Assembly (NCBI RefSeq): GCF_014472395.1
Contig: NZ_JACSZW010000005.1
Span: forward strand, 124,001-188,000
Source of the DNA: Pedobacter sp. N36a
GTDB taxonomy: Bacteria > Bacteroidota > Bacteroidia > Sphingobacteriales > Sphingobacteriaceae
Length of the DNA stretch: 64,000 nucleotides
Direction: 5' to 3'
The notes beneath the pieces are model-generated. The model was not told where the DNA came from, ran no database searches, and saw nothing but the letters and a program-made list of their open reading frames with translations. This document shows, in pieces, positions 26,867-42,275 of this stretch (position 1 is its first letter; every line of letters begins with the position of its first letter). A program made the position numbers and the translations under genes.

Positions 26867-26909
26867 TATTATGATTTATATATATTATGATATTTGAAAC
26901 AAAATACCA

Positions 26910-28268
26910 TTAACCTCGGGTTAAAAATGTACGATTAACTTGTTTTAAAAATACAACTATTTCTTTATAGCCAATCACAAAAATACCCCAAAAACTAAAT
27001 TTAGCATATCTATAGAGCGGATAATAGGTCATGATGATCGCAATTAGGGTTGGAAATACTGAAGCTATAGCTATAGTATAGATGGAATGATAGATCGACA
27101 TCCCAATAAAAACAGTGATAACATTCACAATCAGCATGACAATAATTTTATAAAAGTTCACTTTAGGCTGGTGGATCACGTCCAATGCCAATGCAAAGAA
27201 ACGATCTGCTGGATAGAGCAATGCAATTACCATAAACATCCGGAAGAGATTTGGCGCCTGATTATTGACGTATTCTTTTCCTGCAATTAAACTAATAATT
27301 GGTTCTGCAAAAATGAGGGCAAATACCACTATCGGAATTAAAGCGATCGTGATCATCCCAATTAATTTTTTAAGGGTATACATCATCTCTTCCTTCTCAT
27401 TTCTATTGTAATGCAGGGAAAGAATCGGCATCCCGCTTGCAGCAAAACTAGAAAGAGGGATTTCAATGAGCTGAATCAGCTTTCCCCCAAGGTTGTACAT
27501 CGCCAGTGCGGCTGGACCGATAAAAAAATTGATGATGAAAGTGTTGGTTACACCAAAAAGGTTGGATCCAATATTGGTACCCATACTATACTTTCCAAAA
27601 TGAAACAATTCAAGAACAGTTGGACGATCTGCATGGACTACCGATCTGATCATTGTCCACTTTAAGAAAAGCACAAACACACCTGAAAACAAGAAGGAAA
27701 AGCAATAACCTGCAAGGACCGAATTCAAACTTAATTTCCCAAGTAAGGCAAGTATAAAGACGATCAAAGTAAAACTGCCCTGGGTCATGATCCTAAGCCA
27801 GAGTAAACGATCAAAACGTTTATCTGCCTGGACCACACAATTGGCCATAAATGAAGGCAATGTAATAACCGAAATCAGGGAGAAATATCTAAGAAATACC
27901 GCTAAACCCTCATTACTCACATGATCCGCAATAAAATATGCCGGAATGTTCAGCAAAACCAGCAGCAAAGTAATTAGGAGTCCGATTACCCATGAGGATC
28001 CAGCAACTACTTCTGCTCTTTTCTTTTCGGTTCCACTATAAAACTTAACAAAGGTGATGGTTAAGAATCCGGCTCTTAAGGTATCAATCAGGCCTATTGC
28101 CGCCAGAAAAAAAATATAAACACCAAGATCATTCACTGAAAGTCCCCGATAGAGAATTGCCAGGGTAATCATCCCAAAACCTGCCATCACTGCATTTCCG
28201 AGCAAAGATTGAAAATGCATATTTTTGAATATAGAGAGCAGTTTTTTTAAGAATTCGAGCATGTACAA
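26910..28268 (-). CDS. Wzx-type polysaccharide flippase (MOP superfamily)
   Basis: This 452-aa protein has about twelve hydrophobic segments spread evenly and no soluble domain, as in RfbX/Wzx transporters that flip undecaprenyl-linked repeat units. Typical parts are FLKKLLSIFKNMHFQSLLGN at the N-terminus and NLGGKLIQLIEIPLSSFA in the middle. The Wzy-like polymerase and Wzc-like chain-length protein lie 7-10 kb upstream on the same strand and complete a Wzx/Wzy system. ATG at 28262 is an alternative start. The 249-base gap before it contains the terminator of the preceding lipoprotein gene, so this gene should have its own promoter. Confidence 0.88.
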   Translation of the reverse strand: MYMLEFLKKLLSIFKNMHFQSLLGNAVMAGFGMITLAILYRGLSVNDLGVYIFFLAAIGLIDTLRAGFLTITFVKFYSGTEKKRAEVVAGSSWVIGLLITLLLVLLNIPAYFIADHVSNEGLAVFLRYFSLISVITLPSFMANCVVQADKRFDRLLWLRIMTQGSFTLIVFILALLGKLSLNSVLAGYCFSFLFSGVFVLFLKWTMIRSVVHADRPTVLELFHFGKYSMGTNIGSNLFGVTNTFIINFFIGPAALAMYNLGGKLIQLIEIPLSSFAASGMPILSLHYNRNEKEEMMYTLKKLIGMITIALIPIVVFALIFAEPIISLIAGKEYVNNQAPNLFRMFMVIALLYPADRFFALALDVIHQPKVNFYKIIVMLIVNVITVFIGMSIYHSIYTIAIASVFPTLIAIIMTYYPLYRYAKFSFWGIFVIGYKEIVVFLKQVNRTFLTRG

Positions 28269-28440
28269 CAGGTTATCAACTATGAAATCAGCAAATGATA
28301 ACGAAAGATATAAAAATTATCATTCTTAAGGAGAACAAATACTTAAATGCATATTAAACCTATATAACGATAATACTCTTTCAAAAGATCATCCTCCCCC
28401 ACTTTACAATAAACAGACCAAACAGACAGAAGAAATGAGT

Positions 28441-28480
28441 AAAAAAAATCTCCTTAACCAATATTCTGATTAAAGAGATT
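28441..28480 (-). terminator. Rho-independent terminator after the beta-helix lipoprotein
   Basis: Read on the minus strand, arms AATCTCTTTAA and TTAAGGAGATT (one mismatch) frame a 12-base loop and are followed by eight T. The position is 38 bases past the lipoprotein stop. Confidence 0.75.
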
Positions 28481-28517
28481 TCTTTCAGTTCATAAAGAAG
28501 CTAACAGTAACTGTTAT

Positions 28518-29948
28518 TTATTCAACTGCACCTATTGATGGCCTTGATAAAGACCTAGGGTTGTTATAAATATCGAAATTAATTGCTGGAGTGGAAGAAA
28601 TCTGCAGGTTCTGTCCAGTTAAAGGTGCTCCAGCATTTTTTGCTGCTGAATTCCCATTCAGCATCAATTTGCTATCATCTACTATTCCTGCTGCCGAATA
28701 ACTATTAAAATATTTATTATTAAAGGAATTCGGTGGAATAGGCCCCATATCATTAAAAATAAAGTTGGTGTTATTTTGCCCAACTAGAGTAAACTTATAC
28801 CCTAAATTATTAAAGATATCGGTCTTACCGCCTTGCAAACCATAAAGATCCAGAATCTCAGCTGGGAACCCTTCTTTGGGTATTAGGTTTCCACAAGTGT
28901 TATTGAATACTTTAGCATTTGAATAAGTAGTTTTCCCCGGTAACATATTATAAGGAAAAGCCTGCAATTCAAAAGCGCTGTACATTCTAGAATTAATTAC
29001 AATATTATTAAAGATTAAGATCTCCTTAGGTGTAGTACCAATGCTGTAAGCCCAGGCCCTGATTGCATTTCCCTGGTGGTTTCTAATTTGATTATTATAG
29101 AATTTACCATTACCCTGAACATAAAATATTCCATTGTGGTTATTGTTATTCTGGTTGATATCCTGAATACTATTGTGATGAATATCATAGTCTTCCGCGT
29201 TCTCAAGAGATACTACACTACCTACATCTTTTGAATTCTTATAGTTCAAGTAAGCAATTTCTACATTTTTAACTAATCCGACGATCCTGCCATTCTCCAC
29301 CACACCTCTGAATCTAATCAGTGTTCCCATATTCTCGCCATCAATATGAAGGAATTTCAAATTCTGGGCATAAGAAGCTTCCGAGCCATCATAATTTTTT
29401 TGAGAATCGTACTGAATCGCATTATATGAATTGACATTATTGAAAGAAGCATATCTTAATGTAAAATCGTTGATGTCATTTTTAAGCTGAATAAAAGTTC
29501 CGCCATCTGTTTTATCTCTAAAAACAAAGCCTTTATCTATTCCAGGAGTCCCATCACCAGAAATCGTTACGTTTTTAAGATTTGACAAGGTCATTTGTTT
29601 GTTCCCTGCTAATTCTACCAAACCACTATTTAAAATGAACACCGTTGCATTTAGGACACTAATATTTGAAATTTGAATATCATTATAAGAGCCTCCTTTA
29701 ATTTTAATAACCGTGTTGCCTGTGATGTCCAATGTTTTTCCATCGATCGATAGGTTTCCAGAACCTGTTCCAACTTCAATTATCCTTGAATTACCAGGGA
29801 CAACTACGGAGTCTTTTGGAGGCGTTGGAATAGTTGGAATTTCAGTTTCTGGCTTTGTGACGTCTGTACCTATTTCCGGGTTCTTTTTACATGCGCACAA
29901 AACAACCAATGCACATAAGGCTAAATTCATTTTTAAGGCGTTTACCAT
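28518..29948 (-). CDS. Lipoprotein with right-handed parallel beta-helix
   Basis: A lipoprotein leader ends in VVLCAC, followed by KKNPE and a Pro/Thr-rich linker (TKPETEIPTIPTPPK). The body of about 400 residues shows repeated short turns rich in Asn and Ile/Val (IQISNIS, MTLSNLKNVTISGDG, EDYDIHHNSIQDINQN, HNGIFYVQGNG, ILIFNNIVIN), as in pectate-lyase or chondroitinase-B-like beta-helices. It may cut or bind an acidic polysaccharide at the cell surface; no catalytic Asp/Arg set can be assigned by eye. Upstream is a 443-base spacer and downstream a terminator, so it is probably transcribed alone inside the cluster. Confidence 0.78.
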   Translation of the reverse strand: MVNALKMNLALCALVVLCACKKNPEIGTDVTKPETEIPTIPTPPKDSVVVPGNSRIIEVGTGSGNLSIDGKTLDITGNTVIKIKGGSYNDIQISNISVLNATVFILNSGLVELAGNKQMTLSNLKNVTISGDGTPGIDKGFVFRDKTDGGTFIQLKNDINDFTLRYASFNNVNSYNAIQYDSQKNYDGSEASYAQNLKFLHIDGENMGTLIRFRGVVENGRIVGLVKNVEIAYLNYKNSKDVGSVVSLENAEDYDIHHNSIQDINQNNNNHNGIFYVQGNGKFYNNQIRNHQGNAIRAWAYSIGTTPKEILIFNNIVINSRMYSAFELQAFPYNMLPGKTTYSNAKVFNNTCGNLIPKEGFPAEILDLYGLQGGKTDIFNNLGYKFTLVGQNNTNFIFNDMGPIPPNSFNNKYFNSYSAAGIVDDSKLMLNGNSAAKNAGAPLTGQNLQISSTPAINFDIYNNPRSLSRPSIGAVE

Positions 29949-30391
29949 AAATTAAAAATTACTTTTACTTTGTCTAATAGGAGCAATTGTAACAAATAAT
30001 CTACATATAAAAGCACGGGCTTGTACCGCTGCCAAATTAGGCTTTTCTGAAAAAACCGCCAAAGCAACTAATTGGGGAATATTTTCCTCGTTTTTCATCA
30101 CTTTAGGGGTATGAAATTAAAATATTTTATGACTTATATATGACAAACAAGTCTTTAAAATATTGGGATCTCTCTGAAAACAGTAACCCATAGGTTAAAT
30201 TATTTACAAAAAGATAATATTGAGGAATATACTCCACAACATTAATTGGTTATATAAAATCATTGCTGGTTACATGAAATTGTGGAAATAAAATAATGCC
30301 AAAGAATCTATTGCGCAAAAGTCACCTCAAGTTTGGATCAATAAAATAGCAAATACGCGCAACATAAGCGACTACAAAAATGAATTTAATA
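29949..30391. other. AT-rich intergenic region, no gene seen
   Basis: These 443 bases separate the end of the long glycosyltransferase operon from the lipoprotein gene. Only very short frames occur (for example 17 codons from the ATG at 30297). No clear hairpin with a T-run and no perfect TAnnTTTG box on the minus strand was found. It presumably holds the lipoprotein promoter. Confidence 0.5.
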
Positions 30392-31195
30392 TCATCCTAA
30401 TAAAAATTTTGTCCTGGCTAAAAAAGCTTTAAACAGTCCGCCTTGTTCCATTAACCTTCTATCTGAAGTCCAAACCAGTGCACGGTTAGCTGTGATCTTA
30501 TGCAGTTTTCCAAATTTACTTCTTAATTTCAGTGCCAGATACCCATCTTCGTTGGTCTCAGGTGGATGATGATAACCATCAACCTGTAAGCCTTGCTCCT
30601 TTCTATACCCTGAACTGCAGCCATATACATACATCGCTTCGTCATTACTTCTTCGTTTTATGGCTTTGAAAAAGTCCCCGGCAGTTTCGTATAGAAAATA
30701 GGGAAATCGATGAGCAGGACGATCTGATACAAAAGCAAAACGGCCATAAGTACAGGCTACAGACGGATCTTTTAGCGGCAAAGAAAGTAAATCTACCCAA
30801 TACGGACTATAAAATGAGTCTGCATCAGCATTCAGGATGATTTTTCCTTTTGCTGCCTGCAGCCCAGAATTCCTTGCATGGGTTACTCCTTGCTGCTTTT
30901 CTATTAACCAGTTTGCACCACTAAGTTCAATCAACTCCTGTGTACGATCTGTAGAATTATTATTCACCACCAGTATTTCTACCTTTTGATTGGTAATTGT
31001 CCTAGACAGCGACCACAATGTTTTTAGAATAGAAGCCTCCTCATTATATGCGGGAATGCTTACAGTTACAACCGCCTGATCGGAATGAAGACGTTTAATT
31101 CCTTCTCGGATTTCGGCAACATGATCCAGGAACCATTGCCCATCATATTGCTGTGCTTCCAGGTAAGCAGGAATTCTCAAGGGTCTGATTGGCAT
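30392..31195 (-). CDS. Glycosyltransferase, GT2 family
   Basis: This 267-aa enzyme has its GT-A domain starting late, at about residue 43: VTVSIPAYNEEASIL, VVNNNSTDRTQEL, QGVTHARNSGLQAAKG and LNADADSFY (DxD). A C-terminal region with EDGYLALKLRSKFGK follows. The first 40 residues are extra and helical. It closes a run of four glycosyltransferase genes, 7 bases after the GT4 gene. It should add one sugar to the growing lipid-linked unit. Confidence 0.88.
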   Translation of the reverse strand: MPIRPLRIPAYLEAQQYDGQWFLDHVAEIREGIKRLHSDQAVVTVSIPAYNEEASILKTLWSLSRTITNQKVEILVVNNNSTDRTQELIELSGANWLIEKQQGVTHARNSGLQAAKGKIILNADADSFYSPYWVDLLSLPLKDPSVACTYGRFAFVSDRPAHRFPYFLYETAGDFFKAIKRRSNDEAMYVYGCSSGYRKEQGLQVDGYHHPPETNEDGYLALKLRSKFGKLHKITANRALVWTSDRRLMEQGGLFKAFLARTKFLLG

Positions 31196-31202
31196 ATACT
31201 TT

Positions 31203-32354
31203 TTATCCTTTTGGTAATTGATTAAATGTATTATAAAGTGCCAGCAGTTGTGTTGCTGCAGCTTTCCATGTGAACTCGGCGGCCCTTCTCAGTCCTTTTT
31301 CTTTCAACTTCGCCGCTAATTCTGAATCGTTTAAGATGATGATCATTTGATCTTTTATTTGACGATAATCCAAGGGATCAACAAATAATGCCGCACCAGC
31401 AGCAACTTCAGGCATAGAAGAAGTATTAGAAGTAATTACAGGCACACCACAGGCCATGGCCTCTAATAGTGGAAGGCCAAAACTCTCCCTTAATGAAGGG
31501 TAAAGGAAAAGTCTGCTGATATTATACAATAAAGGCATTTCTTCTGAGGCGATGTATCCTGGAAATAAGAAATCTTTTTCCAAATGCTGCTCACCTAGTT
31601 TTGCCAGCAATTCAAAAACCAGGCTTTTGTCATAATCAAGAATCACCATTGGTAAGCCATCAGGTACTTCGGCCTTATAAGCTGCATAAGCTTTAATTAC
31701 ATTCAGCGTATTCTTCTTAGGGGCTGTATTCCCTAAAAAAAGTATAAAATCCAAAGGCAGTTGATGGGCATCTCTAAATTCTGCTAATCGTTCAGCTGCA
31801 TAATTAGTATTGAATTTCGGACTCACAGCATTATAAATGACCTTCACCTTTTGTTCAGGCAAATTGAGTTTGTTTAAAATCACGTTTCTCTCAAAGTTCG
31901 AAACCGTAATGATCAATTTACTCTTATCTACAATTTTTGGAACAACAAATCTTCGATATAAGTTACCAAAATTCTGATAAGCAGTTCCCTTAAAATCAGT
32001 TTTTTCCAAGTAGATGATATCATGTAAGGTGAGCATCATTGGAACCGGCAAGCGCAATGCAGAGGTATTACATGTAGAATGTAAAAAATCCAATTTATCC
32101 TTTTTTACCTCCGCAGGAAGGGTAAACTGTTCCCAGGTAAAATAAGAACTCGCTGGAAGTGATTTTATCTTAAAATTAGCCGTTTCTGACAAACATTTCT
32201 CGTCCACATCCTTCCTTGCATAAAGAATATATTCGTTATGCTGATCGATTTTTTGAATTTCACGAATGAGCTCCAATGCAACCACTTCCATACCATGCTT
32301 CTTTTCTCTGAAAATACGTTGTACTTCTATACCTATACGGAGTTTGTCTTTCAT
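31203..32354 (-). CDS. Glycosyltransferase, GT4 family
   Basis: This GT-B enzyme of 383 aa starts with RIGIEVQRIFREKKHGMEVV and carries MLTLHDIIY and TVSNFERNVIL in the acceptor half. The donor half has FILFLGNTAPKKNTLNVIKA, FPGYIASEEMPLLY and the EX7E block YPSLRESFGLPLLEAMACG. It resembles mannosyl- or rhamnosyl-type GT4 enzymes of capsule clusters. It lies between two GT2 genes (24 and 7 bases apart) in the minus-strand operon. Confidence 0.9.
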   Translation of the reverse strand: MKDKLRIGIEVQRIFREKKHGMEVVALELIREIQKIDQHNEYILYARKDVDEKCLSETANFKIKSLPASSYFTWEQFTLPAEVKKDKLDFLHSTCNTSALRLPVPMMLTLHDIIYLEKTDFKGTAYQNFGNLYRRFVVPKIVDKSKLIITVSNFERNVILNKLNLPEQKVKVIYNAVSPKFNTNYAAERLAEFRDAHQLPLDFILFLGNTAPKKNTLNVIKAYAAYKAEVPDGLPMVILDYDKSLVFELLAKLGEQHLEKDFLFPGYIASEEMPLLYNISRLFLYPSLRESFGLPLLEAMACGVPVITSNTSSMPEVAAGAALFVDPLDYRQIKDQMIIILNDSELAAKLKEKGLRRAAEFTWKAAATQLLALYNTFNQLPKG

Positions 32355-32378
32355 TAGTTTTCGATTAATAGCAGCAGT

Positions 32379-33548
32379 TTACTTATTTATTTTTTCTTCG
32401 TAATAATGTTCTGTAGCAACAGATATTTCATTCGCTTTTCGCACTTTCAATAACGCAAGTATTTGAAAATAGATAAACTTCGGAGCATTCTTTAGAGAAT
32501 GATAAATCTTATCGTCGGCTTTGAAGTGCGATAAAGCCTTAAATACAAAGGTGAAAAAGGTCAGTGCAGCAAAGATCCAATAAATTGCAAATAAAGGCAT
32601 CAGGAACAAATCCGTTAGAAAGAAAAGGAAGGAAACAATCAGCAGCATAAATAACGGTGGTCTCAACAATAGGATGCTAAATAAAAATTGATTCCAATTT
32701 AAGTTGCAAATTGATTTCAACAGCAATTTAGCGCCTAAATAAAGGTATTTAAACCAAGTATTTATCCACCTGGAGCGTTGGTTCACCAGCTGATCCGTTT
32801 TTGCCGTTTTCTCATCGTATACAATTGCCTGCGCTGCAAAGGCGATTCTATCTCCTCTATTTAAGATCTCATACTGCAGGATTTTATCAAAACCTGCCCC
32901 TGAAATTTCAATATGTTCCAGGCAGGAACGGTAGAGCGACAAGGTAAATGCCATTCCAGACCCTGACAATGCAGCGGAAGATCCCGCTTCAAACATTAAT
33001 TTACGATCTACCAAACGGTAATAAATATCACCAGCTTCATCTAAGCAGGCGTAGGTTGAATCTAGGTTCTTAGCTGCGCGCACACCTTGGACCGCTTGAT
33101 AGCCCTGATCAAAGACTGCATTTAAGGCATTGAAATAATTTGGATGAACCAGGTTGTCACTATCTATAATCGTCAGTCGTTCATGATCACGTCTAAAATT
33201 ATAAATCGCATAAAAATGCGATTTCGTATTGGAGGCCATTACCTCTGGTGGTCGTAATAACACTACTCTTGGGTCTTCAAAACTCAATTCGCTAATGTCA
33301 CAATTATCGGCCACCACATAAATGATATAGTTCGAATAATCAGATTTAAGGATAGAATCAACCACCAGTGGGATTAAATTGACCTGCTGATAAGCAGTCA
33401 CGATTACCGCATAATCAGCAGGTAAAGCATGAACTGAAGGCTGAGGCTGCTTTCTGAATTTACCTGCTATTGATAAAATCAAAGGCATAAAAAAGTGCAG
33501 TCCAAATAAGACCTGTAACAATACGAGAAGAAAATACAATAGGTTCAT
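32379..33548 (-). CDS. Membrane-bound glycosyltransferase, GT2 family
   Basis: An N-terminal membrane segment (about 3-25) precedes a GT2 domain with YAVIVTAYQQVNLI, VVADNCDISEL, TIIDSDNLVHPNY (DxD), LSGSGMAF and DKILQYEILNRGDR. The stretch QRSRWINTWFKY matches the QxxRW motif of processive GT2 enzymes (cellulose/hyaluronan/GlcNAc synthase type). Three hydrophobic segments end the protein. It may build a backbone rather than add a single sugar, but non-processive members share this layout. It is 11 bases from the GT upstream. Confidence 0.87.
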   Translation of the reverse strand: MNLLYFLLVLLQVLFGLHFFMPLILSIAGKFRKQPQPSVHALPADYAVIVTAYQQVNLIPLVVDSILKSDYSNYIIYVVADNCDISELSFEDPRVVLLRPPEVMASNTKSHFYAIYNFRRDHERLTIIDSDNLVHPNYFNALNAVFDQGYQAVQGVRAAKNLDSTYACLDEAGDIYYRLVDRKLMFEAGSSAALSGSGMAFTLSLYRSCLEHIEISGAGFDKILQYEILNRGDRIAFAAQAIVYDEKTAKTDQLVNQRSRWINTWFKYLYLGAKLLLKSICNLNWNQFLFSILLLRPPLFMLLIVSFLFFLTDLFLMPLFAIYWIFAALTFFTFVFKALSHFKADDKIYHSLKNAPKFIYFQILALLKVRKANEISVATEHYYEEKINK

Positions 33549-33559
33549 GTATGTCGGTT

Positions 33560-34756
33560 TTATTTTTTATTAATAGTCATTTCAATTGCCGCATACATTT
33601 TAAGAATACAGTTTTCCCAGCTATGGCTGGCAGCAAAAGACTTCCGATCTTCCTGCAGCGCTAAAGAATCCTCTGTCAATGCTTTTTCTATACAGCTCAC
33701 ATAATCTTCTTTAGATTGTGCAAGATAAACATGCTCTTTGAAGATATCCATCGCACGCGTTTCCGTGGCCACTGTTGGTTTACCCATGGCCAGGTATTCA
33801 TCTACCTTACGGGGATAATTTCCAATAGTGACCTGATTAACCAATTGCGGATTGATGCATACATCAAAATACTGCATATATAAAGGTAAAGATTCCATTG
33901 GTTTGATCCCTGTAAATACCACATTGGGCAGCTGATGCAGCACACTATTTTTAAATTCATCATCCTCTGGACCAACCAGTACAATCGTCCAGTCTTTTCG
34001 CTGATTGGCAAGGTGTGCAATCAACTCCATATCGAGCCTGATACTTTGCAAGGCACCTACATAACCAATGATTGGGGTATGTATATTGCTCAGTTCCAAT
34101 GGCTTTTCTGCACTAAGGTCATCTTTGAAAATCTCCAAATCGCAACCCTGACCAATATCGTAAGAATTCAAATTATACTGCTTACAATAGTCTGCAAGAT
34201 AAACAGAGTTTGCCATGCAAATATCGTTACTGGCAATTAGAAGTGGCTCTAAACGTTCCCCATGTCGTTTCCAATAGTCTACTGCCAGCATGTAATCTCT
34301 GGAATAATAAATACTTAAAAAAGGACTCAACAGTGTGTTCAAATAAAACCCTTTAAAAATCTCATTGTCATTAAACAACAGATAATCCTTAAAATCGAGC
34401 CCTTTAATCCCTTTAACAATCGCATCCGCAAATTTGACATTGTTCCGTTTATTCAGAAAATTAAAAACTTTTTCATTTTTAATCCAATTGATAGACTCTA
34501 CCAGACAATCTGGATATAGGTTCCATAAATTTTCCTGAATCTTTACTAAACCAGACTGCTTGCCTTTAATCACATCAATACGCTGCTGAACTTTTGGATC
34601 TGCACGATTCTTATACAGTGTAATTCTATCCAGAGGAGAGTTCACATACAAGACCCTGTTATTTTTGGAAAGCTCAAGTGCAATATTCTTACAATTACTA
34701 CCTATATCGGTATCCCATGCCTGCTGGCCTATAATGATGATATCTCTACTGATCAT
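33560..34756 (-). CDS. Glycosyltransferase, GT-B fold (GT4/TuaH-like)
   Basis: The frame is open to 34834, but the ATG at 34756 fits better. It gives the GT-B start MISRDIIIIGQQAWDTDIG and a 13-base gap to the preceding gene instead of a 65-base overlap. Length is then 398 aa. Donor-domain features are IGYVGALQSIRLDMELI, VVFTGIKPMESLPLY and a PRKVDEYLAMGKPTVATET block. The acceptor half has YYSRDYMLAVDYWKRHGERL, also seen in TuaH-like and other teichuronate/EPS transferases. Donor unknown. Confidence 0.85.
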   Translation of the reverse strand: MISRDIIIIGQQAWDTDIGSNCKNIALELSKNNRVLYVNSPLDRITLYKNRADPKVQQRIDVIKGKQSGLVKIQENLWNLYPDCLVESINWIKNEKVFNFLNKRNNVKFADAIVKGIKGLDFKDYLLFNDNEIFKGFYLNTLLSPFLSIYYSRDYMLAVDYWKRHGERLEPLLIASNDICMANSVYLADYCKQYNLNSYDIGQGCDLEIFKDDLSAEKPLELSNIHTPIIGYVGALQSIRLDMELIAHLANQRKDWTIVLVGPEDDEFKNSVLHQLPNVVFTGIKPMESLPLYMQYFDVCINPQLVNQVTIGNYPRKVDEYLAMGKPTVATETRAMDIFKEHVYLAQSKEDYVSCIEKALTEDSLALQEDRKSFAASHSWENCILKMYAAIEMTINKK

Positions 34757-34769
34757 TTGATAATTAAAG

Positions 34770-35384
34770 TTATAATTTATTCCAAGCTTTATCAGTGGCA
34801 CTATATTTTTTGACCACTTTTGCAGGATTTCCAACAGCTACACAAAACTCAGGTATATCTTTCGTAACGACGCTACCTGCACCAATAACGGAATGTTTAC
34901 CAATAGTTACACCAGCAGTGATCACACTATTTGCACCAATCCATACCTCATCACCTATTGTAATTTGTTTACGTATTTCTTTTTGCAGACTTGGAGGAAT
35001 ATTTACATCCTCATAGCCATGATTCAGACCGGAAACCACAATATTCTGAGCAAGCATCACATGATCACCTATTTTTACTGGCCCGATCACTACGCTTCCA
35101 ATTCCGATCATCGTATGCGCTCCTATAATCACATCTCCAACTCCATTGTTGATGGTTACAAAGTCTTCAATTACGGATCTTGTCCCTAACTCAAAATTAT
35201 TGAAAGGAAAAACATCCATCCTACTGTTAAAGCGCACAACACTACCTTTGCCCCTTTTATGTTTAAAAGGATTAAGAAACAACCTCACCCATAATCTAGG
35301 CCTATGGTCATTTGCAGGGATCAATAACCGATGTGCGATCTTCTTCAGCTTCGGATTTTCTTTGATTTTATTGATTAAAGACAT
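34770..35384 (-). CDS. Hexapeptide-repeat acyltransferase, WcaF/maltose-acetyltransferase type
   Basis: The 204-aa protein carries left-handed beta-helix hexapeptides (VIIGAHTMIGIGSVVIG, QITIGDEVWIGANSVIT and the following AGVTIGKHSVIGAGSVVTKD), with the loop His in GLNHGYED and the typical end VAVGNPAKVVKKY. Such enzymes O-acetylate sugars or N-acylate amino sugars using acyl-CoA. A basic N-terminal helix region (residues 1-45) is usual in the capsule-associated subgroup. It lies in the operon between a 26-residue membrane peptide and a GT gene. Acetylation of the exopolysaccharide is the simplest role. Confidence 0.9.
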   Translation of the reverse strand: MSLINKIKENPKLKKIAHRLLIPANDHRPRLWVRLFLNPFKHKRGKGSVVRFNSRMDVFPFNNFELGTRSVIEDFVTINNGVGDVIIGAHTMIGIGSVVIGPVKIGDHVMLAQNIVVSGLNHGYEDVNIPPSLQKEIRKQITIGDEVWIGANSVITAGVTIGKHSVIGAGSVVTKDIPEFCVAVGNPAKVVKKYSATDKAWNKL

Positions 35385-35420
35385 TTTAATTAATAGTTCT
35401 AGGTTTGATATTGTCTATGT

Positions 35421-35501
35421 CTACTTCTTCTTTCTAATTTCCAGAAAAAAGGCAATTGCAAAGCAGAGCAGACCAGGAATTAGAAAAATTTCAAATGGCA
35501 T
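35421..35501 (-). CDS. 26-residue membrane peptide, coupled to the Wzy-like gene
   Basis: Its ATG (35501-35499) overlaps the TAA of the upstream Wzy-like gene by one base as TAATG, the same junction used at 41006 in this operon. The peptide reads MPFEIFLIPG, then an uninterrupted hydrophobic run to about residue 20, and ends EIRKKK. Motif, membrane helix and basic tail are the three parts of a PEP-CTERM-like sorting signal, but there is no protein in front of it. No exosortase-like gene is visible in the window. It could also be a regulatory micro-membrane protein. Coupling, spacing (36 bases to the acyltransferase) and composition argue for a real gene. Confidence 0.62.
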   Translation of the reverse strand: MPFEIFLIPGLLCFAIAFFLEIRKKK

Positions 35502-36928
35502 TAGCTTTCTGGTTTATCGTCAAAATTTGGACATAGGTAAATAAAAGCAAGAAAAACAGCAACCACCAACGACGAAGGCATTGAATTGATTACTTCATTT
35601 CCATAACTACAAAAAAAGATTCCTGTACAGGTAGCCATCATAGCTATTGCTTTATATCTTAACCCTTCATTTCTTATATTCCATATCATACCACAACCCT
35701 GTCCAAAAATATACATCATGATACAAAACCAGGCTGTGAAACCGACGATGCCATACATCGCCCAAACTTTCACCCAATAACTATCAGGTTCGACTGTGGA
35801 GAGGAATTTATCTTTATTATACTCCTTACCCCAGGTTCCAATTACGCCTAATCCTCCTCCAAATGGATGAGTTTTCAGGTATTCTCCAATAATCTTTTGA
35901 TTGTTAAAACGGACATTCAAAGATGCTTCCTGAGGGTCTAACGCGGTTCTTAAGCGATAAATCTGGTAATTACCATTGCCAATATAAGTGTATTTTAGGA
36001 CGAAAAAGAACGACAGTGCCAATGCGCCACCTATAACCAGGACTTTGATGTTTTTTGTTAAAAATATAGCGAAAAAAGCACCAACTAACAGCGCAAAAAG
36101 CGCTCCCCTTGTTCCAGAGATCAGCATACCATAGAAAGACAAGCCAGCGGCAATAAGAAGAATCAGACGCTTCCACCACTTATAAGGACCTAAAGCCAAT
36201 ACCATCGCCATCAATGCGAAGGAAGCCTGAGAAGCACCGAACTGTCCGGCATCACTATAGAATGAAAATATCCTTAGCCTGCCCCATAGCACGTGAGTCA
36301 CCTCCCCTCCGTCAGTTAAAAACTGCTGTTCTCCTGGAGAAAGACCGATGTATTGCTGCTTCAGCCCATTTATAGTCGCTAATAAAGACAAGGACAAGAT
36401 TAAGATCAGGAATAGGCTCAGCTTCTGTTTAGAATTATAAATTAAAAAAACCAATGGGGTAATCAAAATTGGAAAAAGTCCAGAGCTTCTTATTTCCTGA
36501 AGCCAGCCCCTTACACTTGCACCTGCTGGGTTAATAATCTCCATGAAGCTGATCAGAAACCAGGCTAAAATCAATTTGGTTAAGTTATTATTCAGAATTT
36601 TCCAATCGTACCTATTATTCAAAATTATCACTGCCAACCAAGTCAGCAGCAAAAATATCTCGATTCCAATACCATACGGTAAGCCACCAATCTCTCTCGC
36701 GAGAATTCCAAATAAGAAGCAATAAACAGTTAAAGCAGTAAGGCCAACAGCAGGATCTTGAAATAGAAAAATAATGAACATAACGACCAATGCCCCTACG
36801 ATTAATATCACTGGGGCTAAAGGGGATGCAAAGGTCAGCACACTCACCACAACGGAGAGCAACAAACCTAGTAAAGAAATAATCACTGTCCGCCACGCTG
36901 GTGATAAGGATGATATAAATCGGATCAT
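35501..36928 (-). CDS. Wzy-like polysaccharide polymerase / O-antigen-ligase-domain protein
   Basis: This 475-aa polytopic protein has about twelve hydrophobic segments. The O-antigen ligase/Wzy_C-type region includes SGTRGALFALLVGAFFA and a large periplasmic loop (about 315-385) rich in charged residues, with RFNNQKIIGEYLKTHPFGGG and GTWGKEYNKD. Such proteins join flipped repeat units into polymer. It is the only polymerase candidate in the cluster. A strong hairpin lies between it and the Wzc-like gene upstream, and its stop overlaps the start of a 26-residue peptide. Confidence 0.86.
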   Translation of the reverse strand: MIRFISSLSPAWRTVIISLLGLLLSVVVSVLTFASPLAPVILIVGALVVMFIIFLFQDPAVGLTALTVYCFLFGILAREIGGLPYGIGIEIFLLLTWLAVIILNNRYDWKILNNNLTKLILAWFLISFMEIINPAGASVRGWLQEIRSSGLFPILITPLVFLIYNSKQKLSLFLILILSLSLLATINGLKQQYIGLSPGEQQFLTDGGEVTHVLWGRLRIFSFYSDAGQFGASQASFALMAMVLALGPYKWWKRLILLIAAGLSFYGMLISGTRGALFALLVGAFFAIFLTKNIKVLVIGGALALSFFFVLKYTYIGNGNYQIYRLRTALDPQEASLNVRFNNQKIIGEYLKTHPFGGGLGVIGTWGKEYNKDKFLSTVEPDSYWVKVWAMYGIVGFTAWFCIMMYIFGQGCGMIWNIRNEGLRYKAIAMMATCTGIFFCSYGNEVINSMPSSLVVAVFLAFIYLCPNFDDKPES

Positions 36929-36954
36929 TGTGATCGGGGGTATTTTCAGTTAAG

Positions 36955-36990
36955 ATCAGCGGTCTGTTTTTTATAAATTAGACCGCTGAT
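36955..36990. other. Intra-operon hairpin between Wzc-like and Wzy-like genes
   Basis: Perfect 11-base arms ATCAGCGGTCT and AGACCGCTGAT (36955-36965, 36980-36990) enclose a 14-base A/T-rich loop in the 71-base gap. No T-run follows on either strand, so it is not an ordinary terminator. It may stabilise or process the operon mRNA. Confidence 0.6.
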
Positions 36991-36999
36991 GTTTAAACG

Positions 37000-39156
37000 C
37001 TATTTAATTTTCTTTAATTGAATCTTATTTAAAACCCAACCTAGAAAACCCGGCTGGCCTTTAATATAATCAATCAGCTCTCTATCTCTGTCTTCTAATG
37101 GTTTTCCAGATTCAAATACTGCAATGTTTTTTTCTGTAAACAACAACCATTCTTTAGCGATATTAATATCACGAAGGCTATTTACATCAATAATAATCAC
37201 ATCAAACTCATTTCTGAGTACTTCAAAACCTGCACGCAGATTTTTAGCATTCTGCATTTCAAGTAAGGACGAATTGTTGTCATTTTTATTCAACACAGTG
37301 ATCAGATCTTCTGTCTGAATTTGTCTTTTTACCAGGAATGTTTCAAAATCCTGACTTAAAGAAAGTTCTTTAGAGTTTGATTTTACGACCTCCGTTTCTC
37401 CACCGATCAGCAATACCTTTTTTCCAATCATGGCAAAAGAATAAGCCAGGCTACTCGCAATAAAGGATTTACCTTCTTTATCATTTAAACTGGTTACCCC
37501 TAAAATCTTAGTATCATCACTTTCAAATGCATTAGAAATCTCAAATCGCAGCGATCTCAATAGATCGCGATAGGCCGTATATTCTGGATTGTTCCTATTA
37601 TCATTCCACACATTCCTCATACTAAGGTCTGCATCATGCATATAATTTAAACTACCCAGCACTCTTGAATTTGTTGCAGCTTCCAGTTGTCTGGAATCAC
37701 GTATGGTATTATCTAATAGAAAAATGATCAAAACGGCAACGAAACAGATGAAAAAACTCGCAATTCCTGCCAGACCAATATAAATAATCCCTTTTGAAGG
37801 CAATGGAGGTCCTTCCAGTCCAACTTGAGCTAACTGCAGTTTTAATGCGATATTTTGTTCTGTACGGGTTTGATTATACGAGTCTAAAGAAGCCATATAA
37901 TCTTTTGTTGCCAATTCAGCATCACGTTCATAATTCTGAATACCAGCATCAAATGGAACCATGCTGTTGTACTTGGCTTTCAGCATCGCCAATTCATTGT
38001 CAATAGATTTGATGCTACCTTTTGCCTGACTTACAGCAGTTTGCAAAGCCAGTTTTTGTTGAATCAGACCTTGCCTGGAGGCTATAGGGTTGGTCACATC
38101 ACCGTCAGAAATTCTCGAGCTCAAACGATCAATTAGTCTGGAAAGAGAATCTATCCTTTTTTTGTCGCTTACCTTAAAATTACCGTCTATATACGCGTCA
38201 TTTGCCTCTTTCAACTGATTTTTAAGATTCACAATAGCCCTATTGTCAACTGTAGAGTTTCCTTGGGAAAAACTATCACCTGATCGCCCGTTCAGTTTGG
38301 CATCAATATCGGCAATAGCCATTAGATTGGCTTGAATCTCTCTAATTGCCTGGGCCTTACGCTCCTCATTTGCAGAAATCTGCGTATAGACAATTTCAGA
38401 TTGCTTGTCGAGGTTTAACACCCCATTCTTCATCTTAAATTCCTTTAACGCAGCATTCTTGTCATTCATTGTACCTTCTTTCTTTTTCAACAAAGAGTCC
38501 AATAGCTGAATGGAATTATTCTGATTTACATTTACATCCCTTCCATAATTATTAATAAATTCTATGGCTAGGGTATTCACGACAAAAGCAGAAAGCTTAG
38601 GATTTTCAGAAGTATAACTAACGTTGATAAAATCACTGTTGTCAGGTCTGTAAATGCTCAGTTTCTTTTCAAGGTCTTCTTTGTTGTAGCCCATTGAAGA
38701 AAGGATATCATACAGCTTAAATTTCCCCTTATTGTCAACAATGGTCACCACGCTTTTTTGCTGCAGCTTTTCATTAAAGATCTGTATCAGCTCCTGGCGC
38801 TGGCTATTATCAAGAGAATCCAATTTTGGGCTATAAGGCTTAAACGAATCTTTCGGATTTTCAAGGTCATGAAGAATGAGACGATAAGAAAGAATACTCA
38901 TAATCCTCCTCATTTTCATTCTTTCAATAATATTAGAGAACTGCTGACTTATTTTAAAATAATCCGAATTCTGAGGACCACCTGCAACCACTTGTTTAGA
39001 TTGATCCACTAGTCCTGTAGCAATCTGGGCCTCAGAGCTGTATTCTTTAGGTAGATTTTTTACCAGAAAGAAAGTAATGACTGCTGCCATGATAGGCACC
39101 AGAATCAACAACCATTTGTATTTATTAAGAACTTTTAAAAATGCTTTTATATCCAT
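37000..39156 (-). CDS. Wzc/GumC-like chain-length protein with degenerate tyrosine-kinase domain
   Basis: This 718-aa co-polymerase has a Wzz domain with a membrane helix near residues 15-34, a long coiled-coil periplasmic part (about 200-440) and a second membrane helix around 455-480. The cytoplasmic end has the BY-kinase fold but with decayed motifs. Walker A reads SLNDKEGKS (556-564) instead of a GEGKS loop. The Walker A' position reads LLIGGET (582-588), where active enzymes have Asp residues. Walker B IIID (Asp657) is kept. There is no C-terminal Tyr cluster. It probably controls chain length and export without autophosphorylation. It lies 20 bases after the half-TolC gene and above the polymerase gene. 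Confidence 0.88.
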   Translation of the reverse strand: MDIKAFLKVLNKYKWLLILVPIMAAVITFFLVKNLPKEYSSEAQIATGLVDQSKQVVAGGPQNSDYFKISQQFSNIIERMKMRRIMSILSYRLILHDLENPKDSFKPYSPKLDSLDNSQRQELIQIFNEKLQQKSVVTIVDNKGKFKLYDILSSMGYNKEDLEKKLSIYRPDNSDFINVSYTSENPKLSAFVVNTLAIEFINNYGRDVNVNQNNSIQLLDSLLKKKEGTMNDKNAALKEFKMKNGVLNLDKQSEIVYTQISANEERKAQAIREIQANLMAIADIDAKLNGRSGDSFSQGNSTVDNRAIVNLKNQLKEANDAYIDGNFKVSDKKRIDSLSRLIDRLSSRISDGDVTNPIASRQGLIQQKLALQTAVSQAKGSIKSIDNELAMLKAKYNSMVPFDAGIQNYERDAELATKDYMASLDSYNQTRTEQNIALKLQLAQVGLEGPPLPSKGIIYIGLAGIASFFICFVAVLIIFLLDNTIRDSRQLEAATNSRVLGSLNYMHDADLSMRNVWNDNRNNPEYTAYRDLLRSLRFEISNAFESDDTKILGVTSLNDKEGKSFIASSLAYSFAMIGKKVLLIGGETEVVKSNSKELSLSQDFETFLVKRQIQTEDLITVLNKNDNNSSLLEMQNAKNLRAGFEVLRNEFDVIIIDVNSLRDINIAKEWLLFTEKNIAVFESGKPLEDRDRELIDYIKGQPGFLGWVLNKIQLKKIK

Positions 39157-39176: not shown

Positions 39177-39857
39177 CTATTTAACTTCGGAAAGTTTGAC
39201 ACCAATAATTTCTTCCAATGAATCTTTAGCGTTAAGCAAGTTTACTTCTGCTTGAATTTTTGCCGTATTTGCATTCGTCAAGTTAATTCTTGATTGATTA
39301 TAGGTATCTAACGTAATTTCACCTTTTTCAAACTTATACAATTGATTATCAGCAACATTCTTGTTATCCTGAACACTTTGACTATAAATTTTTAGCTGGC
39401 TTATTTGTTGAATATACGCATAATATCTTCTTTTTACTTCAACAGCTAGTGAAAGTTCATATTCATCTGCCTGATATTGAGCAATCTTCAGATCAGATTT
39501 TGCTTTTTTAGCAGTGAATGGTTTTTGTAAGAAAGCACCAAGGTTCACATTAATTCCGAATTGGAATCCATTCACATTGTACGGATTTATCGGGTCAATA
39601 ACAGATTTCTTTTCTGGTCTGTAAAAATAGGATGCATTGAATATATCCAGGTAAGACAATGCAGTGATTGGCAATTCAGCTTTTGCTTTGGTTACTGTCT
39701 CATTCAGTGCTTTTCTTCTTGGATAATTCTGTTTTGCTAATGCAATGTATTTCTCCAAATCAGCATATTTAATATCGCCGATAATTGATTCCTGAGCGTA
39801 AGTATCTAAGCTTATAAACATTAATAAAATTAATGCCATTTTAAATAGATTTTTCAT
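39177..39857 (-). CDS. TolC-family outer membrane protein, half-length
   Basis: A Sec signal peptide (to about residue 21, YAQE) is followed by one outer-membrane efflux domain: an amphipathic strand (FNASYFYRPEKK, GFQFGINVNLGAF) and long helical stretches around QYQADEYELSLAVEVKRRYY and IQAEVNLLNAKDSLEEIIG. Usual TolC proteins have two such repeats and over 400 residues; this one has 226 and a normal stop, so it is about half. It may assemble as a larger oligomer and serve as the outer-membrane channel for the Wzc-like protein encoded 20 bases downstream, replacing a Wza-type protein, which is absent. Confidence 0.82.
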   Translation of the reverse strand: MKNLFKMALILLMFISLDTYAQESIIGDIKYADLEKYIALAKQNYPRRKALNETVTKAKAELPITALSYLDIFNASYFYRPEKKSVIDPINPYNVNGFQFGINVNLGAFLQKPFTAKKAKSDLKIAQYQADEYELSLAVEVKRRYYAYIQQISQLKIYSQSVQDNKNVADNQLYKFEKGEITLDTYNQSRINLTNANTAKIQAEVNLLNAKDSLEEIIGVKLSEVK

Positions 39858-39929
39858 GATTTAGTGTGGTTAAGAGAATTTGATTTAAGCGTTTATATTT
39901 TTGTTTGTAATTAAGATTATGCGTGGAGA

Positions 39930-41006
39930 CTATACCTCTTCTTTTTGAATCAATGCAGGAATCGTTTTTAATATAATTTTAAGGTCCAGTAAGATCGAAT
40001 AATTGTCTGCGTAAAAATTATCTAACTCTTTTCGTTCTGTTTCTGACATATCTTTCTTCCCTCTTTTACTGATTTGCCATAAACCGGTCAATCCTGCAGG
40101 GCCCAGGAACCTCGTAGACCATTCATTGGTGGTCAGTTGTTCTGCTTCATATAAAGGCAGTGGACGATTGCCTACCAGCGACATATCACCGATAAAAACG
40201 TTAATCAGCTGTGGCAGCTCATCGATGCTCGTTTTCCTTAAAAATGCACCGAGTTTCGTGATTCTTGGATCGTCTTTAAACTTTACAAAAGCCGCTTTAC
40301 CGTTTTTGCTATCCGATTCATTGGCATATTGGTTCAGGTTAGCAATAGAATCCAGCATCTTATCTGCATCGCTTCTCATCGAGCGGAATTTATAAAAATC
40401 AAAAATGCGATATCCAGCGCCTACCCTTTTACTCTTGTAAATCACAGGACCTTTGGATTCTAATTTGATTAAGATGGCAACAACGATGAACAATGGAAAT
40501 AAGAATAATAATGCCATACCTGATGCCATCACATCAAAGGCACGTTTTGCGAAGGGAGTTTGGTATTCCACCTCTACCGTTTGAGCAAGTTCCATTAACT
40601 TAGGTTTGATTAACTTAAATTTAACTAAAAAATTAAGTCTTTCACAAAAATCTTCTAAGGGAAACGGATAGGTATAATAATCATTCACCTTCAGCTCCAA
40701 AGCTTGTTGCCTCCATTTCTTATCTTCTTTGATGCCGAGCAGCACAATGATCAATCCCTGAAGTAAAGGATTTTTCTTAATTTCTCTAATTTGATCAAAG
40801 CAGTTTTTATTGTCATCCACTTCAATTAGAATGATATCAGGTAAGGTTAACAAAGACTGTTGATCCAGATACCTTTTAAAGTCTTCAGGATCATCCATTT
40901 GCTCTACATTGGCATCAAATTCCTCGGAAATCACACTCTTAAGGAGTTTTCCGAAATGCACAATTTTAGCATTAATTTGAGGACGATTAATTGTAGACGT
41001 GTTCAT
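39930..41006 (-). CDS. Initiating sugar transferase (WbaP/PglC type) with N-terminal pseudo-receiver
   Basis: Residues about 150-358 form a polyprenyl-phosphate sugar-1-phosphate transferase: RAFDVMASGMALLFLFPL (membrane hairpin), SKRVGAGYRIFDFYKFRSM, DPRITKLGAFLRKTSIDELP, GDMSLVGNRPLPLYEAE and GPAGLTGLWQISKRG. It loads the first sugar onto undecaprenyl phosphate. Residues 10-130 align with receiver domains, but the active residues are gone: the Asp pair is His17-Phe18, the phospho-acceptor Asp is Glu62, the Ser/Thr is Gly91 and the Lys is Tyr113. The upstream gene is an intact receiver and shares one base with this start (TAATG). The fusion suggests regulation of polymer initiation by protein contact. 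Confidence 0.9.
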   Translation of the reverse strand: MNTSTINRPQINAKIVHFGKLLKSVISEEFDANVEQMDDPEDFKRYLDQQSLLTLPDIILIEVDDNKNCFDQIREIKKNPLLQGLIIVLLGIKEDKKWRQQALELKVNDYYTYPFPLEDFCERLNFLVKFKLIKPKLMELAQTVEVEYQTPFAKRAFDVMASGMALLFLFPLFIVVAILIKLESKGPVIYKSKRVGAGYRIFDFYKFRSMRSDADKMLDSIANLNQYANESDSKNGKAAFVKFKDDPRITKLGAFLRKTSIDELPQLINVFIGDMSLVGNRPLPLYEAEQLTTNEWSTRFLGPAGLTGLWQISKRGKKDMSETERKELDNFYADNYSILLDLKIILKTIPALIQKEEV

Positions 41007-41509
41007 TATGCGATAAGTTGAGCAATTTGCGTTTTTAATGTTGCCGGATTAAAAGGTTTTTCTAAATAACTGTCTATTTTAAACGGCATATTCTTTACTT
41101 TTTCAGCAAGATCCTCGGCGCCAGACAATAAGATTACCGGTGTATTTCTATAGAAGCCACTGATCTTAAGGTTTCTAATTAAAGAACTTCCATCAAAATA
41201 AGGCATCATCAAATCAGAGATAATCAGATCCGGATCATTACCTTCTTCTAACCAGGCAATGGCTTCAATCCCACTCTTTTTAATGATTAAATCATAATCT
41301 GCAGCCAAAATGAAACTCAACAGCTTGAGAATACTAAGTTCGTCATCTACAATTAATATGCTTTTTCTGTGACCGGTTTTACTTTCCATGTATTCTTTAG
41401 TGTGCGTCTTGCCAGAACTCCACAACAAAAACTTATCCAAGTATGGAGAATGATCTGTTTCAGGTGACCTGGTTTTACTATTGTTGTTACTGATTATATC
41501 TGTAAACAT
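41006..41509 (-). CDS. Stand-alone response-regulator receiver protein
   Basis: A 45-residue Ser/Thr-rich leader precedes an intact receiver domain with Asp55-Asp56 (ILIVDDE), phospho-acceptor Asp99 (LIISDLMMP), Ser129 (VILLSG) and Lys151 (EKPF). No output domain follows. Met41 (41389) is an alternative start giving just the receiver. It is the first gene of the 19-kb polysaccharide operon and is coupled to the sugar transferase by a TAATG overlap. It probably acts by binding another protein, plausibly the pseudo-receiver of its neighbour. No histidine kinase gene is present in the window. Confidence 0.9.
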   Translation of the reverse strand: MFTDIISNNNSKTRSPETDHSPYLDKFLLWSSGKTHTKEYMESKTGHRKSILIVDDELSILKLLSFILAADYDLIIKKSGIEAIAWLEEGNDPDLIISDLMMPYFDGSSLIRNLKISGFYRNTPVILLSGAEDLAEKVKNMPFKIDSYLEKPFNPATLKTQIAQLIA

Positions 41510-41599
41510 AATGCTTTTTCTAGTTAAACCTTTAATTAAACTTTCTTTGATTTAAAAAAAAGCAGAAATTATTTCATTCCATATTTCCTACCAGCTCAT

Positions 41600-41974
41600 T
41601 TATTTTATATTTATCTCAAATGTCTTCCTCCTGCGTTCACCAGCAGACCATTTATTCAATTCATTGGAAACTACCCGACCAAAGGAATCGACCACTAGAA
41701 CCCTTATTTTTTGTTCTTCTTTGGAAAGGACTTCTGTGACCAAAGCAAAATCACCGGAGTAAAAAAAGGGCATATCATTACTCCCCTCATCAATCCCCAC
41801 TTTAAAATCCTTGTTATTGACCTGATACGTCACCTCACATTTACTGCATTCGACTCTCAAAAGCCCTTCGCGCTTTAGAATCACATGATCAAGACTATCT
41901 AAAGAATTGTCTTTCTTACAGCTGCCTAAAAAAGCAATGGCGACTAATAACAATAAGGGAGATAAAACGCGCAT
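41600..41974 (-). CDS. Small lipoprotein, function unknown
   Basis: The frame is open to 42046, but the ATG at 41974 gives a clean lipoprotein signal, RVLSPLLLLVAIAFLGSC followed by KKDN. The mature part of about 106 residues contains a CSKC pair at RVECSKCEVTYQ and alternating beta-type segments. I recognise no family. It has its own position 90 bases upstream of the regulator gene on the same strand and could be transcribed with it. The two close Cys could form a disulfide or bind metal in the periplasm. Confidence 0.65.
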   Translation of the reverse strand: MRVLSPLLLLVAIAFLGSCKKDNSLDSLDHVILKREGLLRVECSKCEVTYQVNNKDFKVGIDEGSNDMPFFYSGDFALVTEVLSKEEQKIRVLVVDSFGRVVSNELNKWSAGERRRKTFEINIK

Positions 41975-42275
41975 TTTCCTATAATTTAACAAAATATTAA
42001 AGGAAAAAACCAGGCCAAGCCTGTATTTTCGAAAAATGAAGGCCAAAATAAACTCATAAACTCAAGCCCAAGCTTATAGAGGCCCATTTTCTATATTAAA
42101 AACATTATTTATGATTTGAGAAACCTTAGATTAAAGGAGTTTTATTTTCCCAATAAACGCCCCATTGTGGGCATTTTTCTACAACTATTTTAACCATAAA
42201 AATAGGTGTTACACCGCTAATTTAGCTATTAGAGAACCTTTTTGGAGCAATAAATACCTCGTCGCCTAAGCCGTT

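Follow-up and report, generated by a model that had tools for sequence, protein, structure and literature searches.

The response regulator and transferase genes

We analysed a stretch of 64,000 nucleotides from Pedobacter sp. N36a (assembly GCF_014472395.1, contig NZ_JACSZW010000005.1, positions 124,001 to 188,000), below called the window. A minus-strand polysaccharide cluster begins there at position 41509, with the gene of a response regulator (RR) in first place and the gene of a phosphoglycosyl transferase (PGT) in second. These two proteins and the receiver-like domain at the N-terminus of the transferase are the subject of this analysis. The main features, derived from open reading frames (ORFs), Pfam, alignments, Foldseek and a structural model, are as follows:

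41006..41509, minus strand: RR, a single-domain response regulator of 167 aa (ORF; Pfam Response_reg, E=4e-19)
41342..41347, minus strand: acidic pair Asp55-Asp56 of the RR
41213..41215, minus strand: phospho-acceptor Asp99 of the RR
41004..41008, minus strand: TAATG, stop/start overlap of the RR and PGT genes, with one base in common (sequence)
39930..41006, minus strand: predicted pseudoreceiver-PGT fusion of 358 aa, a small monotopic PGT (ORF, Pfam, model)
39933..40553, minus strand: PGT catalytic domain, residues 152-358, with Asp158-X12-Pro171 and the Asp262-Glu263 dyad (Pfam, alignment, Foldseek)

The receiver of the RR spans approximately residues 48-167 and precedes no output domain. 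With one receiver and one set of phosphorylation residues (the DD pair, the acceptor D, S/T and K, here Asp55-Asp56, Asp99, Ser129 and Lys151), the protein is a single-domain response regulator. The original prediction had described the upstream gene as an intact receiver with exactly these residues, joined to the next gene by a TAATG overlap; both ORFs exist and both statements were reproduced. An N-terminal extension of about 45 residues, as in the window RR, is present in seven of 29 aligned RRs (L004-L010) and partly in L021.

The second protein matches Pfam Bac_transf (PF02397) at residues 154-353 (E=2.5e-60, 203.5 bits against a cut-off of 27). D158, P171, D262 and E263 are invariant across 79 sequences, the first two corresponding to the D-X12-P motif of the re-entrant helix as defined in PMC12802240 (cited here and below from selected passages of its text), and the catalytic half matches the PglC structures 8g1n and 8e37 in Foldseek. 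By its sequence the protein belongs to the small monotopic PGTs. Judged from its domain layout it is not a large monotopic PGT of the WbaP/EpsZ kind, with a bundle of transmembrane helices (TMH) and a cytoplasmic domain of unknown function (DUF), because residues 12-135 form a receiver fold in the model, catalysis starts at about residue 152, and 358 aa leave no room for the bundle. Elsewhere in the same genome, two open frames (468 and 206 aa) encode further PF02397 proteins.

Conservation of the gene pair

Conservation was analysed in two sets of loci. The near set comprises the best 80 of 112 matches, all on named genome contigs, mostly from Pedobacter and Mucilaginibacter, and also from Daejeonella, Desertivirga, Arcticibacter, allied genera and some metagenome-assembled genomes; we label these loci Sphingobacteriaceae-type, a name of our own; most sequence titles name genera of that family, and some stop at a higher rank or consist of a strain name alone. 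The RR gene lies directly upstream of the PGT gene in 79 of the 80 near loci, and the remaining locus ends at a contig edge. The longest ORFs of the two genes overlap in 70/79 loci, although the true start of a gene may lie downstream of that of its longest ORF. Within the genus of the window, 52 of 89 genomes (its own included) have a near-full-length match to the PGT at E<=1e-98.

A full-length profile compared with 395 genomes of the phylum separated, by a gap in score, a subfamily at about 300 bits or more from generic PGTs at 220 bits or less. Above the gap were 48 places in 45 genomes, and 36 of these (in 33 genomes) had an N-terminal extension, so that the fusion is scattered over Bacteroidota and not universal. 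Further distant loci came from a sample of 395 genomes of the class, partly the same as the phylum sample. The near orthologues L144-L149 and subfamily places of 12 further genomes were left out of the distant count, an extension was defined as more than 95 N-terminal residues, and an RR was counted if it lay within 250 bases upstream. Among the resulting 62 distant loci, an RR was found upstream in 49 of the 50 with an extension versus four of the 12 without; a receiver protein was found upstream of only one of 40 generic PGTs (a protein of 566 aa) versus 53 of the 62 subfamily members. The p-values, 1.2e-6 by Fisher's test for the former comparison and 2.4e-18, are indicative only, as the loci are related by descent. 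Before the class-sample loci were added, the Fisher input was 30/31 versus 4/11. One locus (L205) was reassigned by hand to those with an extension, the automatic cut in this 436-aa protein having been set by an early match. The linkage of the RR and PGT genes is near certain, and the pair, for which the original prediction had proposed a search in other Bacteroidota, occurs well beyond the strain. In L158, the single extension-bearing distant locus that lacks an RR, the gene immediately before that of the pseudoreceiver-PGT encodes a histidine kinase (positions 2831-3862 of that locus, minus strand), which takes the place of the RR.

Adjacency could also reflect co-expression only, with the RR acting on a kinase or on another protein of the operon. 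The gene after the PGT encodes an OEP protein, and the remaining cluster follows it:

39177..39857, minus strand: OEP protein (single repeat, half of TolC), 226 aa (Pfam OEP, 2.2e-17)
25994..39156, minus strand: remaining polysaccharide cluster, with Wzz/bacterial tyrosine kinase-like, Wzy_C, hexapeptide transferase, glycosyltransferase, Polysacc_synt flippase and GT8 proteins

An OEP match downstream of the PGT is frequent (62/80 near loci, 16/50 distant loci with an extension and 1/12 without), which would suit such another target, as would the result of a covariation test: mean-field direct coupling analysis of 127 RR-PGT pairs (about 70 effective sequences) gave z>4 for 42 of 17303 position pairs between the RR and the N-terminal domain versus 54 of 25168 between the RR and the catalytic domain, that is, no signal. 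(The absence of OEP from all 40 generic PGT loci is no test and was not used, those stretches ending about 0.5 kb past the PGT.) Against this explanation, the adjacency of the RR tracks both the PGT subfamily and the extension, as counted above, and it persists in all 34 extension-bearing distant loci without an OEP match; the partner of the RR is therefore more likely the PGT. We consider another target improbable and a physical contact between the RR and the PGT likely. Natural fusions of the two proteins were not seen among the listed subfamily places, the longest frame there having 465 aa, and a scan of viral contigs with the PGT gave two pattern matches and no relative.

A motif W-[LMI]-x-x-G-[NH] precedes strand beta3 of the RR (window 41237-41254, minus strand; RR residues 86-91). 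It is present in 79/79 near RRs and 27/52 distant paired RRs, and in four of 41 other receiver ORFs, three of which (in L034, L039 and L040) are paired RRs themselves. Possibly it is a docking patch that is specific to the family and lies at a distance from the site of phosphorylation.

Wzy_C, flippase, glycosyltransferase and the other genes downstream on the same strand show that the cluster is a Wzx/Wzy-type polysaccharide locus. The segment 28518-29948 within it had no match in the Pfam scan. The three Poly_export (Wza-type) matches of the genome all lie outside the window, and the single-repeat OEP protein could be the exit duct of the polysaccharide. The Wzz/tyrosine kinase-like protein (37000-39156, minus strand) keeps GKS in its Walker A motif; the next motif, usually D-x-D in such kinases, reads LLIGGETE, and no tyrosine cluster was found at its C-terminus on reading the sequence. 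It is possibly a pseudokinase, a term applied to Myxococcus EcpK in PMC12802240. Just upstream of the RR gene, a 148-aa protein with a lipoprotein-like start and no Pfam match is encoded at 41600-42046 (minus strand).

The N-terminal domain of the transferase

The following features were assigned to the N-terminal half of the PGT:

40602..40973, minus strand: pseudoreceiver domain, residues 12-135 ((beta-alpha)5 in the model; VIA-align)
40821..40823, minus strand: Glu62, at the phospho-acceptor position
40680..40682, minus strand: Asp109, position -4 relative to the conserved lysine site, acidic residue of the putative dimer face
40638..40640, minus strand: Arg123, position +10, basic residue of the putative dimer face

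From sequence alone the assignment is borderline: Pfam Response_reg matches residues 20-124 with E=2.9e-4 and 21.4 bits, under the cut-off of 30.2. An AlphaFold model built with 79 sequences has a mean predicted local distance difference test score (pLDDT) of 68.3 and a predicted template modelling score of 0.44 for the whole chain; residues 11-120 form a block with pLDDT 80-86, and the model is poor in parts of the catalytic half (280-320). The modelled strands (15-18, 34-37, 58-62, 86-91 and 109-112), with five helices between them, follow the receiver order. In Foldseek the model retrieves PglC and WbaP first and receivers after them. VIA-align superposes it on PleD (2v0n; Z 17.0, root mean square deviation 5.2 over 132 residues) and on 3dgf and ArcA (1xhe; both Z 16.9, deviation 1.8 over 114 residues). 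When a profile of the domain was compared with PDB at E<=1e-8, PleD was the sole match, via its first receiver; its second receiver adds a stretch to this match and alone has no significance.

According to the model it is near certain that residues 12-135 adopt a receiver fold without the phosphotransfer residues (DD, D, K), that is, a pseudoreceiver. The original prediction had placed the same fold before the PGT with its active residues replaced, and the model agrees in detail: His17-Phe18 lie at the end of beta1, Glu62 at the end of beta3, Gly91 at the end of beta4 and Tyr113 after beta5. Neither of two conditions that the original prediction had named as refuting it, a fold other than a receiver and a pair confined to this strain, applies. 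Among five distant fusions scanned with Pfam, Response_reg scored above the cut-off in L150, L153, L157 and L161 and just under it in L197, which shows that the domain descends from a receiver. In most members it has drifted past the reach of Pfam. The N-terminal domains that Pfam does not call were assigned in near loci by homology in the alignment, and in distant loci by length and an alignment that is uncertain.

Eleven residues are invariant in the 80 near domains: Pro56, Glu62, Asp109, Tyr111, Pro114, Arg123, Phe126, Leu127, Phe130, Lys131 and Pro135. The lysine position is Tyr in 58/80 and never Lys, a pattern that, with the invariant Glu62, goes beyond chance. In 49 distant domains (L191 was excluded from the table of face residues) the acceptor position has Asp in 15, Glu in 10 and Tyr in 6, and Lys is kept in 5; position -4 is acidic in 46 (D 39, E 7) and position +10 basic in 45 (R 39, K 6), all these counts coming from a divergent and uncertain alignment. 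The best-kept residues of the domain throughout the phylum are, by these alignments, Asp109 and Arg123 rather than the catalytic ones.

The offsets of Asp109 and Arg123 (-4 and +10) are identical to those of Asp97 and Arg111 of RstA relative to its conserved lysine, Lys101; in RstA this pair forms the salt bridge at the centre of the alpha4-beta5-alpha5 dimer (PMC4117788), and the equivalent Asp-Arg pair of KdpE is intermolecular (PMC4773095), both papers being cited from excerpts. On the same face, positions 99 and 119 are basic and acidic, respectively, in 67/80 near sequences each. Asp and Arg at these offsets are common in ordinary receivers too, as seen at 18 of the Lys-Pro sites counted, and therefore represent retention and not a new signature. 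The partner RRs of near loci mostly have other residues there: at -4, Ala in 27, Ser in 24, Gly in 13 and Asp in only 3 of 79; at +10, Ala in 36 and Gln in 11. Hence the retention of Asp and Arg in the N-terminal domain is not simply a need of receiver folding. Distant RRs keep the face residues more often (Asp 34 and Arg 25 of 48). We infer from these patterns that the inactive domain may be a dimerisation module. Because most near RRs have neither Asp at -4 nor Arg at +10, a PGT-PGT dimer to which the RR docks at another site looks more likely than a symmetric alpha4-beta5-alpha5 heterodimer of the RR and the pseudoreceiver.

The same face could instead bind a ligand, with the pseudoreceiver as a sensor, for example of cyclic di-GMP, and the RR as a second input. 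There is a precedent in the ShkA pseudoreceiver, which binds cyclic di-GMP on that face (PMC12632262, cited here and below from parts of its text); the residues conserved in the family are those of the dimer salt bridge, which speaks against a sensor and makes it, in our view, an outside chance.

As to the state of the domain, the original prediction had offered a constitutively active receiver or a decoy. The former idea has a structural precedent: the structural matches include PDB entry 2jb9, whose title describes a constitutively active double mutant (D10A/D53E) of the PhoB receiver. Where the acceptor Asp is replaced in nature, Glu is the residue found most often, and a further change is often needed for activity (PMC4395418, from excerpts). 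Both types of change, Glu at the acceptor site and a further one, are found in the window pseudoreceiver. The decoy idea, a domain competing with the RR for the kinase, gained no support beyond the retained fold and the lost acceptor with which it would agree. A covalent link to a membrane enzyme would be unneeded for a kinase decoy. The alpha1 region contacts kinases in ordinary receivers; here alpha1 has no residue conserved in 90% of the 80 loci, and alpha5 has such residues. We regard a decoy as very improbable.

Phosphorylation, mechanism and related systems

These observations suggest that a two-component signal controls polysaccharide production at its first step. In the proposed mechanism, in our view the most economical one, the pair would be a split PleD-like signalling enzyme with polysaccharide initiation as its output. 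The N-terminal pseudoreceiver of the PGT would take no phosphoryl group and would keep the "on" shape, or mimic it via Glu62, and it would use its alpha4-beta5-alpha5 face (Asp109/Arg123) for dimerisation and docking. The RR would be phosphorylated by a kinase or an Hpt relay usually encoded elsewhere, would dock on the pseudoreceiver and would alter the assembly or activity of the PGT, probably upward, so that the two-component signal decides the loading of sugar-1-phosphate on undecaprenyl phosphate. In a few lineages, where the RR has no acceptor Asp, the pair would be hard-wired. The whole chain, in which the pseudoreceiver dimerises and docks and the phosphorylated RR switches the PGT, has in our judgement an even chance of being correct; physical contact, dimerisation, phosphorylation and the direction of control all enter it as inferences. 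For the parts, we lean towards control by phosphorylation in the window species and, to a similar degree, towards activation rather than inhibition.

Candidate phosphate donors are found at some loci. In L181-L183 (three genomes of one genus), the gene immediately before that of the RR encodes a kinase with HisKA, HATPase, REC and Hpt domains, the PGT there being without an extension, and in L152 the RR comes after a REC-Hpt protein. A motif scan of the near set flagged hybrid kinases near the pair in five loci, all on the opposite strand and upstream of the RR, adjacent to it in L079 and L100 (gaps of 423 and 483 bases) and one ORF away in L071, L073 and L080; in each, Pfam finds one or two receivers besides HisKA and HATPase. 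These are PAS-containing hybrid histidine kinases (in L079 at 29-2632 and in L100 at 3933-7025, both minus strand), and we consider the five proteins candidate kinases for the RR. The genome of the window strain has two Hpt domains, on contigs C2 (in a 128-aa frame) and C44 (in an 851-aa frame), neither on the contig of the window. Hpt proteins typically feed single-domain receivers.

Alternatively, the RR could be an obligate subunit or stabiliser of the PGT that acts independently of phosphorylation, with phosphorylation mattering little or in some species only. The acidic residues of most RRs do not suit a mere scaffold: Asp55 is present in 78 and Asp56 in 72 of the 79 near RRs (one row is gapped there) and Asp99 in 73, the other six having Ser. 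The full set (DD, D, S, K) is found in 72/79 near RRs, one further row having a truncated start. In an alignment of RRs only, with 54 rows of which one is the near RR used as reference, 50 rows have the full set. (The DD columns of the distant RRs were taken from this alignment, the joint alignment used for the face residues having misaligned them to I, A or V.) Such conservation exceeds what a scaffold needs, and the kinase and Hpt genes that abut the RR gene in L152 and L181-L183, as well as the divergent neighbours in L079 and L100, likewise argue for a phosphorylated protein.

The evidence on the other side comes from RRs that have lost the acceptor. Six near RRs, all from Pedobacter (L082, L083, L084, L091, L093 and L094), have Ser in place of Asp99 and Gly or Asn in place of Asp56 and keep Ser129 and Lys151. 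This D99S clade retains the RR-PGT pair despite the lost acceptor, and the ratios of non-synonymous to synonymous substitution rates (dN/dS) of its RRs, 0.036 and 0.033 in two close pairs, are like those of close pairs with an intact acceptor (0.030-0.040); in the set used for this calculation the clade is represented by L017-L024, and only two pairs had unsaturated dS. Among distant RRs, the acceptor is Glu in L178 and L184 and Val in L179, and L172 has the acceptor without the DD pair. The overlap of the RR and PGT genes would also fit a subunit. In some lineages the pair evidently stays useful without phosphorylation, to judge from these sequences, either hard-wired in the active state or with the RR also a structural subunit. 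For the family as a whole we hold a purely architectural RR to be rather unlikely. Genome G389 has two RR-PGT pairs (L165 and L178), the RR being intact in one pair and having Glu at the acceptor site in the other, and thus offers a natural comparison of a live and a locked pair.

Several observations weigh against the proposed phosphorylation-controlled, dimerising enzyme. The acceptor Asp is gone from the RR in 6/79 near and 3/48 distant loci, and therefore phosphorylation is not essential everywhere, contrary to a universal phospho-switch. By inspection, no kinase was found among the window ORFs at 38000-46000, and the motif scan, a crude one, flagged a kinase near the pair in no more than five of the 80 near loci. 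The covariation test favoured no interface of the RR with the N-terminal domain, most near RRs have no salt-bridge residues, and Asp and Arg at these offsets are widespread in receivers. Glu62, present in 80/80 near domains, is not general beyond them; Pfam recognises a receiver (E<=0.01) in only 20/79 near and 19/50 distant N-terminal domains, and the alignment behind the other distant assignments is uncertain. Finally, according to PMC12802240 small PGTs function as monomers, and EpsZ, a PGT controlled by a single-domain RR (see below), is unlike the small window PGT with its pseudoreceiver: it is a large monotopic PGT that has a cytoplasmic DUF and a TMH bundle and lacks the beta-hairpin.

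A broader scheme, in which, in scattered families of Bacteroidota, a diffusible receiver acts on a locked-on, dimerising pseudoreceiver to switch a membrane sugar transferase, and in which this switch was hard-wired independently several times by acceptor loss in the diffusible receiver, can be offered only tentatively, with the balance somewhat against it. Undecaprenyl phosphate is common to peptidoglycan synthesis, so that regulation of the PGT step has consequences for the physiology of the cell. If the broader scheme is true, many lineages of one phylum would control their use of undecaprenyl phosphate post-translationally by a phosphorelay, and the way in which a large pseudoreceiver family is activated would be defined. 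According to a 2025 review (PMC12632262), the activation and inactivation of bacterial pseudoreceivers is still a mystery. With more than 100 natural receiver/pseudoreceiver pairs (127 in the covariation test), including lineages without an acceptor, this question becomes directly testable.

The principle of a single-domain RR acting on a PGT and the fusion of receivers with PGTs are already published. Receiver domains fused to small monotopic PGTs, the same broad kind of domain fusion as in the window PGT, were reported in 2021 by O'Toole, Imperiali and Allen, according to PMC12802240. The two-gene arrangement in Bacteroidota, the retention of the dimer face and the loss of the RR acceptor were not found described in the literature searched, most subscription papers lying outside it; the word stem "Bacteroid" is absent from the main text of PMC12802240, "sugar transferase" and "glycosyl" from that of PMC12632262, and "glycosyltransferase" from that of PMC4395418. 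Other pseudoreceivers and aspartate-less receivers, as described in the passages of PMC12632262 and PMC4395418, likewise combine lost catalytic residues, Glu at the acceptor site and alpha4-beta5-alpha5 dimerisation.

Two further known systems are close to the window pair. In PleD of Caulobacter a live receiver has an enzyme under its control by way of a second receiver that is inactive: phosphorylation changes the receiver-pseudoreceiver interactions and leads to dimerisation and cyclase activity, and receiver-pseudoreceiver heterodimers could more generally depend on phosphorylation (PMC12632262). In PleD the receiver, the pseudoreceiver and a diguanylate cyclase are on one chain, whereas the window has two polypeptides and a Bac_transf output. 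In Myxococcus xanthus, as in the window, a single-domain RR is encoded in a polysaccharide locus with a monotopic PGT and a start of the Wzx/Wzy type: phosphorylated EpsW activates EpsZ, in a complex modelled as 2:2, and is proposed to act through dimerisation of the PGT (PMC12802240, 2025). This mechanism is there called previously unrecognised and proposed to reach beyond myxobacteria. If our proposal is true, the window pair carries the EpsW/EpsZ principle to another phylum and to a different enzyme architecture.

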